From NCBI RefSeq assembly GCF_000165425.1, contig NW_001799628.1:1-64000 (forward strand): a stretch of 64,000 nt of DNA, read 5' to 3'. A program made the translations under genes and the position numbers. The notes below the pieces were generated by a model that was not told the origin of the DNA, did no database searches, and saw nothing but the letters and a program-made list of their open reading frames with translations. Source of the stretch: Paramecium tetraurelia (lineage: Eukaryota > Ciliophora > Oligohymenophorea > Peniculida > Parameciidae). Every line of letters starts with the position of its first letter. Within the stretch, counting starts at the first letter, position 1. Shown piece after piece: positions 11,951 to 58,003 of this stretch.

Positions 11951-12697
11951 TTTGAATATCTCATAATTGATTTAACATATTAATTAAATTCATTATGGTT
12001 CTCTTTGTTGGACAACTTAATAACTAGGAGTATTTGATAAAAAAAGGATTGCTATGGATATTATTAGAAAGGCTAATTGAATTGATAATGTAAAGTAATT
12101 AATCGTGTCTTTCTAAATTTAAATTTGATATTAACATAGTCAAAATGAGTACAATCATCCAAGGTACATTGATTCTAATAATTGCAACAGGAAGTTTAAC
12201 AAATATAATTAGAGCATTGAACAATTAAAAAAAACATATTTAATAAATTAGTTAAAATCAAAAATGTGATATAAAGCACCAAGTTTCAAAAATATTATCA
12301 AAGAGTTCCATTACTTGAATAACTATATTTATGCTAATCACCACTTAAATATGATGATTTTGAGAATCATTATAACAAAGTAATTACCTTATAATTTAAT
12401 TTTTGAATTGTTAATTAATCATTAAAACTTCCAATAAACCTCTGATAACAATAAAATCATAATGAAAGCAACTTATACAGAAACTATTTTGAATGATTAA
12501 TATGGAATATAAGGTTTATAATTTCATTTTTAGTTTGACATATGTAAAAAAGAATATGTGAACGCCCTGCAAACTAATAAAGTAGTTTCAACAGGTTTTG
12601 ATGTTTGATTAACCTTAACGATATATAAATGAATATTATTTATATGAGTAAGTATTGAAATAGATATATATATAAATTTCGTTTGTTTATTTTAAGG
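11951..12697. other. Intergenic, no gene recognised
   Basis: A plus-strand frame from an ATG near 12,146 gives about 55 hydrophobic then polar residues before TGA. Nothing else in either strand looks coding. It forms the 3' flank of the VPS37-like gene and of the U3 snoRNA gene. Confidence 0.4.
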
Positions 12698-15689: not shown

Positions 15690-16580
15690 ACAATAATAAA
15701 ATCCTGATGATCCTCCAATTATAACTTATTCTTATGAAAGAGTTTTTTTTATTAAATAAGATTCATTGATTCATGTATTTTGTAAAATTTAACTTGATTA
15801 TAGTTTAATTCTGAATACACCATGCTTATATTACTAATTAATTCAAGTTTGCCTTCTCTAAATTGAGAATTATGGAGATACCAGATTATAAATTCAATAT
15901 TTAAAGTGATAAACCATCATTGCATGAGCAATTAAGGGCTAAGCTTAATCCATTTTAAGTAAAAATAGTATCATGTGAAAATCTTCAAATTTAAGCAGAA
16001 AAATCATACGAATTATGTTACTTCTTCTATATATTTTATATTGGAACCATGATTAATACTAATATGCAAGTTTAAAGGTAAGACATATACTTTAATTCTA
16101 CACACATTTTTTATTGGGAAAAATAGATATTGCAAAATATTTTGAAACTAAACCATTAAAATTTGAATTGCACGACAAAGATGAAGTAGTGAACTGATAT
16201 TAAAGAAGAATTATAATTACAACAAACTTCAATTTAATAACCAATATTTATTATCATGAGTGTATTTGATATTGAGAAAAGGTTTTAAACTGAGGAAGAT
16301 GAAAATAGGCGCTTGAACCTGATTTTACAGTGGATCCAAAGACAGGTAAAAAGATACCGAAAAAGGAATAAAAATAAGAGGAAAAAGATGCAAAAAATAA
16401 AGACAATAAAAAAAAGAATTAAAATTAGATGAACCAAATTTTGGAAGAACTACAAAAAAATAATATAATAATTCCAAGTCGAGCTTTTGAAGAAACTGAA
16501 TCTAATAATTTGGATTTGAATGCAAACACGAGAAGAAACATTCCAAAAATACTTATCAAATGCATTAATAAAAAATGATA
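15690..16580 (+). pseudogene. CFAP92/KIAA1257-like C2-domain protein, pseudogene
   Basis: One frame from the ATG at about 15,873 gives LHEQLRAKLNPFQVKIVSCENL. A second gives FLLGKIDIAKYF...PLKFELHDKDEV, and a third gives EPDFTVDPKTGKKIPKKE followed by Lys/Glu-rich sequence. In that order these resemble the C2-like region of the CFAP92 (FAP92, KIAA1257) family and the basic linker after it. The frame changes at the T-run near 16,110 and near 16,316 need one-base indels and have no usable intron, and a TGA follows EVVN. Coding similarity persists across the breaks, so decay looks recent. Sequencing error at two places is the alternative. Confidence 0.5.
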
Positions 16581-21314: not shown

Positions 21315-22825
21315 ATGGATTTATTATAAGACCCTAAAGGGGATAGACAAGTAGATACGATACCCACTCCACCTCATAGACCATTAAGCGAAGAGTTACT
21401 TTTCATAGATGAGAAGCCTAACTGGAAACTTTTGAAGGAACATCTTTTCAAGGAAGGAAGAATAACAAAAAGCTAGTTAATGAAATTAGTTGATATGTGC
21501 AATTACCATTTAAAAAATGAAGGTAATGTTATATATGTCGATGATCCTCTAACTGTCGTGGGGGATATTCATGGATAATACTATGATTTAATCAAAGTAC
21601 TAGAAATGGGAGGTGATCCAGAATAAGGCAAATATGTATGATTATTTGTGTATTTACATGTTTTTTTAGGTGATTATGTTGACAGAGGTTCCTTTTCAAT
21701 CGAAGTAGTGGTGTTATTATATGCTATGAAAATCTACTACCCTACAAGAGTGTTTCTCCTTAGAGGAAATCACGAATGCAAATAATTAACAAGCTACTTC
21801 AACTTTAGAGATGAATGTCTATATAAATATGACCAAGAAGTCTATGAAGCTATCATGGCATCTTTTGACAATATGCCTTTGGTAGCCCTAATAAATAATA
21901 AATTCTTATGTTTACATGGTGGCATATCTCCAGATCTAAAATCGGTATGAATAGAATAATATATAATTAGTTAGCAGACGTTGAGAGAATAGATAGATTC
22001 AGAGAACCACCAAAGGCGGGATTATTTTGTGATATATTATGGGCTGACCCAGTGGAAAATGAAGAACTTTATGATGAAATTCATTATAGAGGTAATGATA
22101 CTAGAGGTTGTAGTTGGTTTTTTGGAGAAAAGGCAGTTCAACCGTTATTAGACAATAATAAGTTTATTTGCTTAATTAGGGCTCATGAAGCTTAATTAGA
22201 AGGATATAGATTATATAAATACAATGAAAAAATAAAAGAATTTCCTTAAGTATTGACTATATTTAGTGCTCCTAATTATTGTGATGTATATAATAATAAG
22301 GCAGCCATTTTAAAGTTCGAGAATTGCACACTTAACATATCATAATTTGGTTACTCTTAGCATCCGTATTTGCTACCTCACTTTTTAGACATTTTTTCAT
22401 GGTCTATACCATTTGTTACAGAAAAAGTAACTGAAATGCTCAATTATGTCTTATAACCAAGACCTGGTGAAAAAATAGACGATTCAGATGATGAAATACC
22501 AAATGCTTAAGTTATTATCAAATAATAAACATTGGGATAATCCTAATCTAATACTCGTCCCTTAGGAAAATTACAGCAAATAACCAAAAAATAAATTGAT
22601 ATAACCAAATCAAAAATTTCTTTTGTTTCCAAAATGATGAAAATGCAAACAGTACTCAGGTAGGAAAGAGAAAATATCATCAAATTAAAAGGACTATGTC
22701 CTGATAAACGTATCCCAAGAGGAGTCCTATTATAAGGAGCAGAAGGAATTAAAGATGCCCTTGAACATTTCAATACAACCAGGGCTGCAGATAGAATCAA
22801 TGAAAAATGGCCAGAAACTAAATGA
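21315..22825 (+). CDS. CNA: Calcineurin A (PP2B catalytic subunit)
   Basis: 486 aa if a 24-nt block and a 26-nt intron (21945-21970) are removed. PPP metal-binding motifs are present: GDIHGQ, GDYVDRG, RGNHEC, and the later HGGISP and SAPNYCD. The unusual LIRAHEAQLEGYRLY corresponds to the VRAHEAQ..GY block of calcineurin. After the catalytic domain, [20 protein letters not shown] matches the calcineurin B-binding helix, followed by a tail with [18 protein letters not shown], which falls where calmodulin would bind. Calcineurin is the Ca2+/calmodulin-activated phosphatase, implicated in stimulated exocytosis in Paramecium. The junction before GDYVDRG is anomalous (see 21636-21659). Confidence 0.9.
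21636..21659 (+). other. 24-bp stop-containing block in calcineurin A
   Basis: Exon 1 ends GGCAAATAT (GKY) and the conserved FLGDYVDRG resumes in the same frame with GTTTTTTTA (VFL). Between them are exactly 24 bases starting GTATGA, including an in-frame TGA. Removing them restores [12 protein letters not shown]. The block starts like a Paramecium intron but ends CAT; the only nearby AG (21667-21669) would delete FL and break the frame. Confidence 0.6.
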
Positions 22826-22847: not shown

Positions 22848-24420
22848 ATGAATGAAAAAACTGTTGATAAATATAAATTCTTAACGACTGATCTTCTTGG
22901 AGCAGGGTGGTTCGCAAAGGTATATAAAGGAATTGATACATTAAATAATACTTAAAAAAACGAAATTTTTATATATTTATTAATCAATAATTAAATCGAA
23001 ATGACATTGTACTACAATTAATAGATAAGTTGCTATAAAAATGCTTCCAAAATAAAATATTCTCTAGGAAAAATATCTCATGGAAGGCTTAAGAAGAGAG
23101 TTATCAGTGATGCAAAAACTTAAGGGAAATAATGTTGTTCGTTTATTACACTCTGGAATCATAAAATAATTATTACATAATTCAAGAATATTGTAAAGAT
23201 AGAGATCTAGGAATCTATCTAAAAAAATAGTAATATTTAACAGAGGTTGGAGCAATAAGAATTTTAACAGATATTCTCAATGGCTTTATTGAATTATTAT
23301 AATAAGGTATTATCCATCGTGATTTGAAACCTGCCAATATTCTTGTCCACTAAAATACTTTTAAATTAGGAGGTAATTTATAATTTTAATTTAGATTTCA
23401 GTTTTGCAAAATGTAAATCTAATTTTTAAAGAGATATAATGGAATCTGTTGTTGGAACTCCTCTTTACATGGCACCCTAAATCTTAATGCGAGAAACATA
23501 TACTAGTAAATGTGACATATGGCAATCGGATGCATATTCAGAAGAACTCCATAGGTTGCGAACTCTGTACCCTAATTACTTAATACTATACTGAAATACC
23601 CAGTCTAATTTCCATCTTATATTTCAGCAGAAGCTAAAGACTTTTTATAGAAATGTTTTGAAGTAAATGAGGATAAACGTATTGGCTGGAATGATCTATA
23701 CAGGCATTAGTTAATTTACCCAAAATTTAAGGAACATGTAGATAAAGTTATAAGTATGGAGGCATAGGCAGAATTCATTATTAATGAACTAAGATAAGTA
23801 ATTGTTATCAAATAAATTGATTTATTAGAAACTTGTAAATAGCTATAAATATAAGATAATTAATTTCTGACTTTTAAAGAATTGCAACTTTTATTAAATG
23901 AAATCGATCTTAAACTAAACAGATAACAAATAGAATTCGTTTTTAATATGATTGATGACTAATTAAATCAATTTCTTAGAGTTTTAAAGTTGTCTCTAAT
24001 TACACAGAGTTAGATTAAATTTACAAGAAATTAAAACTGATATATTATATGAAAAACAGTCCATTAATTTAGTTGCCGAAATGGAAAATAGAATTAAAGA
24101 AAATTAAAGATACAATAGAGGAATAAGAAAAAAGCTTAGTTAAATTGTTTAAATTATTTGATAGTGATCTTAATTAAGTGCTCGATCTAGTCGAATTCGT
24201 AAAATTTCTGAGGTAACTAACTATACTTGAATCAATAATTTTAGAACTTTCAATTCAAACATCAACAATGAGGATGCAAGTTTGATTTTCCAACATTTTG
24301 ATAAAAACTGCAAACGAGGCATTGATTTTTTGGAATTAAAGTCAACTTTTTCGAATCTTAACTATGATGGTAGTATTAGCATTTTACTAAATAATATTCA
24401 AGTAAACAAAATATGATAAA
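22848..24420 (+). pseudogene. EF-hand (CDPK-like) protein kinase, pseudogene
   Basis: Kinase fragments appear in order but in shifting frames: LLGAGWFAKVYKGI (Gly loop), VAIKML (Lys), NNYYIIQEYC, IIHRDLKPANIL (HRD loop), FSFAK after an intron (replacing the canonical DFG context), VGTPLYMAPQIL, CDIW then IGCIF. The C-lobe ends EDKRIGWNDLY. Two EF-hand-like loops follow (DSDLNQVLDLVEF and DKNCKRGIDFLEL), as in calcium-dependent kinases. Breaks: a 73-bp insertion near 22,962, a +1 shift near 23,170, a missing base in DIW.IGCI near 23,523, and more in the EF-hand part. None is fixed by an intron. A decayed duplicate is the simplest reading. Confidence 0.7.
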
Positions 24421-28787: not shown

Positions 28788-29591
28788 TCATTAATCAAGT
28801 TATGGTAATGAGTCTTAAAATGGTTGATTTTATTTTTCATTAGTTCTTTTTTAAATCCATGTATTAAGTAAATTGTTAGATTTTAGAAATTCCAAATTTG
28901 TATTCTAATTACTATGTATATGTAAAAACTATTATTGCTTTACCTAATCACATTGCATCTATTCAATAGTATTCTATTGTGGAGTTTGCCATAGATTCTA
29001 CTACTACTACTACTATAGAGGTGCTTATTAAGGTTAAACACTTGGTGACATGTCTTGGTATGGACTTCGAATGAGTAATGGTGACATTCCCATATAGGCA
29101 TTGTTGTTGTTATTGTACATGTACATTGGCTGTGCAGGTGTGTAAACCATAGGTGTTTAGTTGATTTATTAAAATGGGGAAATAAGATTATAATTTTAAG
29201 GATAATTCTTAAAATATTGTCCCATTAACATTTAGACAGGAGTCTATTGGATTTATTAAGAAATTTCCTCTTGATATGGTCGAAAACCTTAATAAAGTAC
29301 TTGGTTTTATTATTATTGAACAGGAGACATTTATACTTATTTTAATCTGAATTGATCATTCTTCAATTCTTCCAATTATTGGAGTTATGGTTAAAAATAA
29401 TAAGATAAGGTGTTTGGAGTAGATAAGTCTCTCTTATTGTTTTCATTTAATGATAATTAGGGTATTTAATATTATTGGGAAAGGATTTTTTGTTATTAAT
29501 CCAGTTGGAAAGATGATTGATCCAATAATTAATCATCATTTTATCTATTGATAATTTATTCTAATTGTTATCTTGTATTATATTATTGTTA

Positions 29592-29632
<41 letters not shown>

Positions 29633-33677: not shown

Positions 33678-36625
33678 ATGGAAGATATTCAAATCACTAC
33701 AGTAGAAAGTGAGACTGGCAGGAAGTTAGTATGAGTTTGAGTCTATGTAGGGTAAATATTCGATGAGATCAATGGCTTTGCCGAAGATTTCAATTGCAAA
33801 GTAACTGCCGTATTTGAGTGGATTGGATGATGTGAGTATGCCCAAACGTTATAACAGGCAATATTACAAGATCCAATAACCAACCAAAGAGAAGGATCTC
33901 ATTAATGATGTTAATTGAATTCAATATATTGTGTAGAAGGAGGTCTTTGCGAGTCTGACATATAATAATGAGGAACCTTATGAGGATCGTAAGCCCAAGG
34001 AGTTGGTTGGCGAGGACGCTTACAGATCCTATTACCATACATTTAAAAATATTAAGAGAATTTTGGAACAGAACTAATTCGAGAATATTTAAAGTATTCA
34101 TAGATTATCATTACTAAATAGACTCTGTATAGACTAATTTGGTATAGAGATCTGAAAGATTACGGATTTTGCCATGTAAAATGGGTTTGATTAAACTCAA
34201 GGGTGATAGGAATTCACTTTCAATACAGAACTAAAAATTTGGAGATAAATATGTGGAGATGCTTTCTGAGGGGCTTCGGATTCTACCAGCTATTCAAGAT
34301 TTCAATTTTAATCATAATCGAATTAAGGAGCATGGGGCTTCATAATTAATGCCTTTGATTAGTAAATAAGCAAGGAAGATCGAATTTTAAACAAATATGA
34401 TTGGAGAAAAAGGTTTGGACTCAATTTTGAAGATATTACCTATACAATAATGCAAGTAAATTCAAATGCAATATAAAGGATTCAGGTTTTGAATTTGGAA
34501 GACAATAATTTGGGAGATCAACTAATTATTGAATTATGTAAAGCAATGAGCAAGAATCTCTCTGTTGAAACTTTGAACATTTCCAAAAATAAGATAACAA
34601 ACAATGCACACTAAAGTTTGAAATAGTTGATAGAATCCAACGATACTCTACTTGAATTATATTTGCGTTGGAATTCAATTAAAGGTTCTGGTGGTGTAGA
34701 GATATTCAAAGCATTATAAGCTAACAAAAATATCAAAGTCTTGGATTTCTCATACAATTTGTTGGGATGTGGAAATGTGATAGCTCCAGCTCTGAAGGAT
34801 TTCATTATTGAGAATAAATCAATTCAACATTTGGATCTATCGGCTAACAGTTTCACTTTCTCAGATTGCACTATTATATCAGAGGCTCTGAAGTAGAATC
34901 ACTCGATTTATGGATTTCATTTCAGGGGGAACTTTGGATTCGTAGATTCAAAGGGGTTCTTAATAATTGATTCAAGTATGAAGAATTTCAACTCAATTCA
35001 TATTGAATAAAGAATTAAAGGAGTAATGCCACATCCGAAACCTTATGATCATGCATCAAGATTTGAGAAAGTAAAGGATATCTGTTGGATTTGTGATCGT
35101 TGGTAGATGGCCACATTCGAATGGATTCCAAGTATGATATCACATTTATGAGGTAGATAAAAGTGGAGCATGTTCTGAGGAACCAATTTTCATTCATTTC
35201 GATTACGAAGGTTATGAACCTATCTTTTTAGGGAAACCTGATGGACACGGTCATTTCAGAACTCATAGAATGATTCCAACTGGAGACATTGAGTACTTTT
35301 ATACTGCCAATTCTATCTAAGTTGCAAGTCAATCTGTTCCTATAAAATAACACATTGAGAAATTCAGAACTAAAGTTAGCATAGCCGATTAGGTTCTCAA
35401 TCTCTTCATCATTAGGTTGTGAATGTGTTGATTGATGAAACCAATATAGAATCATATCCTAAATCGAAACCTGTTATTGAAGATTGGTATCCCAATTTTG
35501 ATGTTTTACCAAGAACATAAGATCCCATCTACATTCCTGCCAAAAGAAAGAAGTAAAAAAGAATTTGGACATATCCAATCTCTATATGGGCTCCTAAGTA
35601 TAAATTTGACACTGAGGAATTATTGCGTAAATGTTTTGAACGAGATTGGTAATGTTGCAAAATTTCTAAGTTTGTTAAAAAGTAAGAAGAACAGGATTAG
35701 GTTAAAGATATGTTATGGTAAGCATACAAACCAATGAGAGAAACCTATAGATTTTATGCTAGTGTCAATCCAACAGGAGATGTATTTTCAATGTCTGTAA
35801 ATCCAACATCTGATTTTGTGAATCAATGCCAATTGATTGATTAGAAGTAATTGAAATTGGCAGATGTGGATCTTAAATTTATTGCAACTTGTAGTGCATC
35901 TTCAATTGATTACAAGGGTAATTATAGAAATCCAGAGAGGTCATTGGTTAGATACCAGATGATGGAATTCTTAGTGAGAGTCTCAGATGATAAATACATT
36001 AGATTCAATCCCTAAATCAACATTGTCTAAGCTACCAAAATGATGTTAGAATAATGTATGCCACACATGTCCTAATTTGATTCTCATAAATGGAGAGCAG
36101 AGAGATACTTCGTAGAATAATGTGATGATGTATGTAAGAAATATAAGTGGGTTTTTGATTATGTTTATATGAGAAATTCATCCAGAAAGGTTAAGCCTGG
36201 TCAAGCACCTTTTATGTGTTTGGATGAACTCAAGGATATTTGCAATAGAGCAAATTTGTATGATGAAAACTTTGTTGAAAGGGATGTAAATCTGGCATTC
36301 AATTTATCTACACTTACACAAATTGATGAATTGGAAAGTGATAGATTATTTTAAATGCAATGGATCGAGTTTATGGAAGCCATAGCAAGGATTGCAGATA
36401 AGTATTCCCCTATTGCTATTGGAAAGAAAGAAGAAGTATTTATTATTATGATAAAGCTAGAAAGAGTGGACTTATGAGTTGAGATCGCAGTAACCACTAT
36501 ATTACAAATTAGAAGCTTTTATGGTGCATTTAATAAATACCTTAGTTGATGAGGAAACCAAAAAGAATTGGAAATAACCTACGATTTCTATGTTTGATGA
36601 AGTTGAAGAAGATGAATATTATTGA
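33678..36625 (+). CDS. Large leucine-rich-repeat protein
   Basis: 924 aa after removing seven introns of 22-28 nt (one, 34456-34478, ends AAG; two begin GTT). Residues about 170-430 hold ribonuclease-inhibitor-type LRRs (VLNLEDNNLGD, TLNISKNKITN, LYLRWNSIKGSGG, VLDFSYNLLG, HLDLSANSF). After them comes CWICDRWQ with a nearby C, possibly a small zinc site, then IFIHFDYEGYEPIFL. The C-terminal 450 residues are a conserved-looking, tryptophan-rich region of unknown fold ending FDEVEEDEYY. Cytoplasmic, no signal peptide. The size and layout recall ciliary LRR proteins, but no name is safe. Confidence 0.85.
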
Positions 36626-57652: not shown

Positions 57653-58003
57653 ATAGTAAAATAATATGAAAATTTTATATTTAGAAATATATACAAACTT
57701 TATTGCCCAATTGAATAATTCTGAGAAATAAAACTTAATTTTTCTTCTTTTTTTAATATTAACAAAATAGTATCTATATTTGTTTAACTTAATGGTGAAA
57801 ATGAAATGATTGTCAATTTTCTTGTAAAAAATCTTCTTCTATAATGTGAATCATATATCAAAGTATAGTAAATCAATTACATTTTAAAAATTAAGACTGA
57901 TACTTTATAGCAATATCTTACTATATAAGTAGAGTTGAAGTTGTATAAAATATTTAAAATTGGAAATTAATGTGCCTATATTTTTATAATAAAATAATTA
58001 TAA
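57653..58003. other. Intergenic, nothing recognised
   Basis: 350 bp of AT-rich sequence upstream of the second PP2C gene. No coding frame seen. Confidence 0.5.

Follow-up and report, generated by a model that had tools for sequence, protein, structure and literature searches.

A TA-bounded 73-bp block in a Paramecium kinase pseudogene as a candidate retained IES

Introduction

The closest described counterparts of the elements reported here are the TA-IESs of Paramecium, whose ends follow the consensus TAYAGYNR in those parts of two reports on which we draw (PMC3464196, PMC6143343). The same parts place the size peaks of these elements at 26-28, 45-46, 55-56 and 65-66 bp, recurring every 10.2 bp (PMC3464196), and also name a length of 75-77 bp (PMC6143343), while the interiors published have about 20% GC. 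Above about 40 nt TACAG is given as the commonest end; between the fourth peak and about 135 bp there is a marginal preference for C, followed by A and then by G (PMC4132734). A mutated TA abolishes excision (PMC3464196), and the targeting of IES ends by the excision machinery is described as an open question (PMC6143343).

Retention of an IES in the somatic genome is an already known fate that is rarely documented. For P. tetraurelia, the survey sections consulted here describe, across 64 quartet groups, six cases in which an IES was recruited into an exon, and also a known IES that had been assembled into the MAC reference (PMC3464196). As to evolutionary loss, noncoding IESs can also disappear by becoming MAC-destined sequence, whereas exonic ones are lost only by precise deletion, according to the relevant part of Sellis et al. 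2021 (PMC8354472). Here we describe a TA-bounded block in a kinase pseudogene, together with a shorter element in another dead gene, both of which have an IES-like anatomy and stand in a genome sequence that looks macronuclear.

Results

The window and its ohnologous contig

The window, by which we mean the whole 64,000-nt stretch that was analysed, comprises positions 1-64000 of contig C209 in an assembly of 69.07 Mb and 231 contigs. In its reading frames TAA and TAG encode glutamine, and TGA is the sole stop. From position 12,572 on, the window runs colinear with a second contig, C201. Identity is 82-95% in 15 of the 21 chained matches and 66-78% in the rest, as expected for a recent whole-genome duplicate in the Paramecium aurelia group. 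Membership of that group is suggested by the genetic code, the 21-bp intron described below, the ohnologous contigs and the assembly size of 69 Mb. Two stretches, C209:63853-65452 and window 35387-36186, are 97-100% identical to C201, while elsewhere the two contigs mostly differ by 5-20%; judged from the alignments, this local identity suggests recent gene conversion. The features discussed below are collected in Table 1.

Table 1. Positions of the two inserts and of the genes around them, in window coordinates
Feature	Position	Strand	Basis or remark
Pseudogene carrying the 45-bp insert	15872..16557	+	Frame-broken; ohnolog C201:17368-18192
TA-bounded insert, 45 bp, 22% GC	16218..16262	+	Absent from ohnolog C201
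Calcineurin-like phosphatase, upstream neighbour, downstream part	21974..22822	+	Pfam Metallophos E 2.7e-05; colinear with the ohnologous contig
Kinase + EF-hand pseudogene	22848..24370	+	Start at 22848; ohnolog alignment and ohnolog protein matches
IES-like insert, TA-bounded	22937..23009	+	73 bp (one TA counted), 14% GC
Right-edge TA, second copy in the direct repeat	23010..23011	+	Sequence and cut placement against the ohnolog

The kinase gene of the window is dead for more than one reason

The ohnolog of the kinase gene starts at C201:23598 and, once one 21-bp intron is removed, has an open frame of 449 codons when read with table 6; its protein matches the Pkinase (E 6.6e-66) and EF-hand families. 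Relative to this gene the coding part of the window copy, besides carrying the 73-bp block, lacks 2, 16 and 8 bp at three gaps and has gained 1 and 2 bp at two inserts; the window copy also has, in its noncoding part, a 1-bp insert in the intron and a 4-bp insert in a likely second intron, which the alignment places close to the 3' end of the ohnolog. Thus, the block and the several smaller indels together indicate that the window gene is dead for more than one reason. One of the gaps, that of 16 bp at window 23525-23545, may reflect the loss of sequence between two ATGCAT repeats together with one further base, and on that reading it is a slippage-type lesion bearing no relation to IES excision.

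Differences between the two copies are concentrated at third codon positions, with 44 of 150 in exon 1 against 7 of 151 and 6 of 151 at the others, and with 93 of 280 in exon 2 against 30 of 280 and 22 of 281. From this excess we conclude that the kinase gene probably remained functional during much of the period after the duplication.

Edges of the 73-bp block

The original prediction held that an AT-rich, TA-bounded block of 73 bp breaks the kinase frame just ahead of the VAIKM motif and that the gene has further lesions; sequence and ohnolog alignment bear out the former, and the indels listed above the latter. The edges had to be moved. We shifted a cut of 73 bp along the sequence of the window, counting mismatches to the C201 ohnolog over 187 bp. 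The fewest, 19, were obtained with four equivalent cuts at 22937-22940, among which 22937 is a TA that is matched by the TA at 23010 and leaves one TA at the empty site. The ohnolog-guided optimum, which was obtained without regard to IES motifs, includes the TA/TA placement, and this placement yields TACA at both ends (TACATTAA and, on the other strand, TACAATGT). The joined site then reads DTTINRQVAIKM, to be compared with DTTNNRQVAIKM in the ohnolog.

Other TA pairs fit less well, those starting at 22946 and 22949 giving 21 mismatches each over the same 187 bp, so that the cut at 22937 leads other TA pairs by just 2 mismatches and ties with its three neighbouring cuts. The placement initially proposed, which leaves a single TA between ACT and GTT, has its two TAs at 22953 and 23026, likewise 73 bp apart; it costs 23 mismatches as against 19 and gives the junction DTLNNTQVAIKM, and the span of 22962-23036 that had been assigned to the block fits neither this cut nor the ohnolog-guided one. 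Paralogs without the block read DTTSNLKVAIKK (C200) and DTTTNLKVAIKK (C14) at the insert site, and their DTT-x-N motif fits the 22937 cut (DTTINRQ) but not the 22953/23026 cut (DTLNNTQ). On these alignments, edges at 22937 are preferred, by a modest margin.

The block is absent from the recent ohnolog on C201 and from the more distant paralogs on C200 and C14, that is, from all three copies examined among the 103 kinase matches listed, and the open frame is kept across the insert site in each of them. Since the sister copies lack the block, its insertion is derived in the window copy; presence in all ohnologs, which had been named beforehand as evidence against a retained IES, is not what we found.

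IES-like features of the 73-bp block

At the corrected edges the two ends agree with TAYAGYNR at 7 of 8 and 6 of 8 positions. The poor match to TAYAG that had been reported for the earlier edges disappears here, both ends beginning with TACA and missing just the G. A length of about 75 bp, near a periodic class, had also been claimed, and this holds roughly, with the actual 73 bp being 2-3 bp short of the 75-77 bp peak.

Short introns of Paramecium measure about 20-30 bp and have GT...AG ends. A short intron was ruled out as the identity of the block by its length of 73 bp and its edges, TACA...TTG; the ohnolog's own intron has 21 bp. A local duplication was rejected as well, for comparison of the block with the window, with C209:64001-94000 and with C201:1-200000 returned only short AT-rich matches, the best of 19 bp. 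When the whole genome was searched with 22950-23040, a query covering 60 of the block's 73 bp, only the block itself was found outside simple repeats, which the search skips.

A second element of 45 bp

Another TA-bounded insert sits 6.7 kb upstream of the kinase block, in another dead gene, whose ohnolog is open throughout the 275 residues covered; no Pfam family was found for it. The ends of the insert (TACAACAA and, on the other strand, TACACTCA) both carry TACA and agree with TAYAGYNR at 7 of 8 positions each by an eye count; the left flank is identical to the ohnolog over 18 bp and the right flank over 13 bp, and one TA remains at the empty site. The length of the insert is divisible by three and it contains no TGA in the ohnolog's frame, as read from the alignment. 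The TA bounds were seen in direct alignments and in a junction scan, the automatic indel test being blind here owing to small gaps nearby. A whole-genome search with 70 bp around the element, again skipping simple repeats, returned only itself. Taken together, the two elements have TACA at all four ends, G at position 5 at none of the four, and intact flanking TAs throughout; the length of 45 bp falls on a published peak.

Indel survey and chance expectation

For the survey, the window and C209:64001-94000 were aligned to C201:1-130000, giving 44,934 aligned bp, to which the stretches 66548-72000 and 92650-94000, merely 54-73% identical, added little. It returned 30 ungapped indels of at least 12 bp, 15 of them listed individually, and 7 of the 30 are at least 20 bp long with a flank identity of at least 0.75, a threshold fixed after the indel list had been seen. 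Among these 7, the 73-bp and 45-bp blocks have TA bounds and TACA at either end, while the other five, including an ATT repeat, are additional sequence in C201. A separate junction scan recovered the same two elements and, besides them, only a simple-repeat region. The elements number two in all and come from the single contig pair C209/C201. A further 6.1-kb stretch of C209 (102405-108495), compared with C201, held two indels of at least 8 bp, neither of them TA- or TAYA-bounded. In a 400-bp scan, the rows over both pseudogenes have several frameshifting gaps, as do other rows.

Several other candidates were dropped. One near 29557-29610, also flagged near 29563, lies in an ATT repeat and has many equivalent edges, and the TA-bounded indels near 58000 (11-12 bp) and 72048 (37 bp) do not have TAYA at both ends.

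How often such ends arise by chance was simulated with 60,000 random inserts per model, the inserts being either blunt or accompanied by a 2-bp duplication. TA bounds appeared in 4.5% of the blunt and 17.9% of the duplicating inserts, TAYA at both ends in 0.10% and 0.44%, and TACA at both ends in 0.01% and 0.05%, respectively. Among the 7 longer indels of the survey, by comparison, 2 have TAYA at both ends.

Discussion

Two inserts that run from TA to TA with IES-type ends, one of them of an exact class length, make retained IESs the simplest account of the data. We consider it probable, on the sequence comparisons given above, that each is an IES which the somatic genome now retains within a dead gene, and that the 73-bp block is a former or very weak IES that is no longer reliably removed, a judgement that spans a permanently kept and a very weakly excised element alike. 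The original prediction of a retained IES accordingly stands as the best reading, made stronger by the correction of the edges and by the 45-bp element, and is upheld overall only in part. The GC contents of the two blocks, 14% and 22%, speak for it. Against it stand the preferred base G missing from position 5 of all four ends and the off-peak length of the longer block; the best-documented cause of retention, a mutated TA, is likewise absent. Moreover, for neither element was a relative found elsewhere in the genome, which is usual for IESs but provides no positive family link.

We infer a germline IES origin, a loss of excision and a cause of that loss as follows. A Tc1/mariner-like element would have inserted at a TA of the kinase gene in the germline, either earlier or later than the recent genome duplication, and during the useful life of the gene its precise excision at the TAs by the PiggyMac machinery would have been required. 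In the window copy the excision signal would then have decayed, the TAs staying intact while neither end retains the position-5 G and the length departs from the helical-phase peak; either of these defects might be the cause of failed excision. The decayed element would pass into the macronuclear chromosome as ordinary DNA, and, with the ohnolog covering the kinase function, its retention may have been tolerated or may itself have been among the fatal lesions.

Within this reading of the inserts as retained IESs, the 73-bp block could still be a living IES, one that most macronuclear copies have lost by excision, weak excision having allowed the unexcised form to be assembled. Both TAs and the TACA ends of the block are intact, IESs retained in more than 10% of copies do exist (0.7% of genic IESs on average), and the IES built into the P. 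tetraurelia MAC reference is a precedent (PMC3464196). Both elements, however, lie in pseudogenes, and no other TA-bounded, TAYA-ended insert was found in the aligned stretches; this pseudogene-only location fits relaxed selection better than random capture in assembly, two cases being few. A living IES therefore appears to us possible but doubtful.

An ordinary insertion, in which AT-rich filler or captured DNA was added at break repair when the gene was already dead, would make the TA and TACA ends coincidental. The many other indels of the kinase gene would suit such an event, as would the absence of the position-5 G at both ends and the off-peak length, and TA bounds alone are frequent enough among simulated inserts (4.5-17.9%). 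It is the rarity of TAYA (0.10-0.44%) and of TACA (0.01-0.05%) at both ends of these inserts, and the repetition of the same pattern by the 45-bp element, that make this origin improbable. The TA duplication and TACA-type ends would equally be expected of a short Tc1/mariner-type, MITE-like remnant that landed in a dead gene, where no excision is needed, and that was never an excised IES. Such a remnant seems very unlikely to us, as a second genomic copy was found for neither element (the first query covering 60 of the 73 bp) and the 45-bp length coincides with an IES size peak.

If the inserts are indeed retained IESs, elements kept with their TA and TACA would be natural loss-of-excision mutants, and a catalogue of them across ohnolog pairs could reveal the end bases and lengths that excision requires, as well as the order of retention and gene death. 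We further suggest, tentatively and as a generalization that may well fail, that dead genes act as a graveyard in which exonic IESs turn into permanent somatic DNA. The position-5 G and the length phase would decay there under relaxed selection while TA and TACA persist, macronuclear pseudogenes would hold datable fossil IESs showing the signals that excision needs, and the step common to them would be that both ends lose the G. A partial literature search met neither this locus nor a catalogue of retained IESs in pseudogenes, from which we claim no absence of either.

As compared with the Paramecium TA-IESs described in the consulted parts of Arnaiz et al. 2012 (PMC3464196), the present elements are alike in having TA at both ends, an exonic position, an AT-rich sequence, no second copy found, ends near TAYAGYNR and, for the shorter one, an on-peak length of 45 bp; they differ in being present in a macronuclear-looking assembly, in lacking the position-5 G at every end (0 of 4) and in the off-peak 73 bp. 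With the exon-recruited IESs of the same source they share the retention of an IES-like stretch in the somatic coding DNA of one ohnolog, but they lie in pseudogenes. The route proposed here, finally, is the one by which noncoding IESs become MAC-destined sequence in the account of Sellis et al. 2021 (PMC8354472). That account restricts the loss of exonic IESs to precise deletion; a dead exon would be the natural exception to the rule, the MAC-destined route being open to it too.
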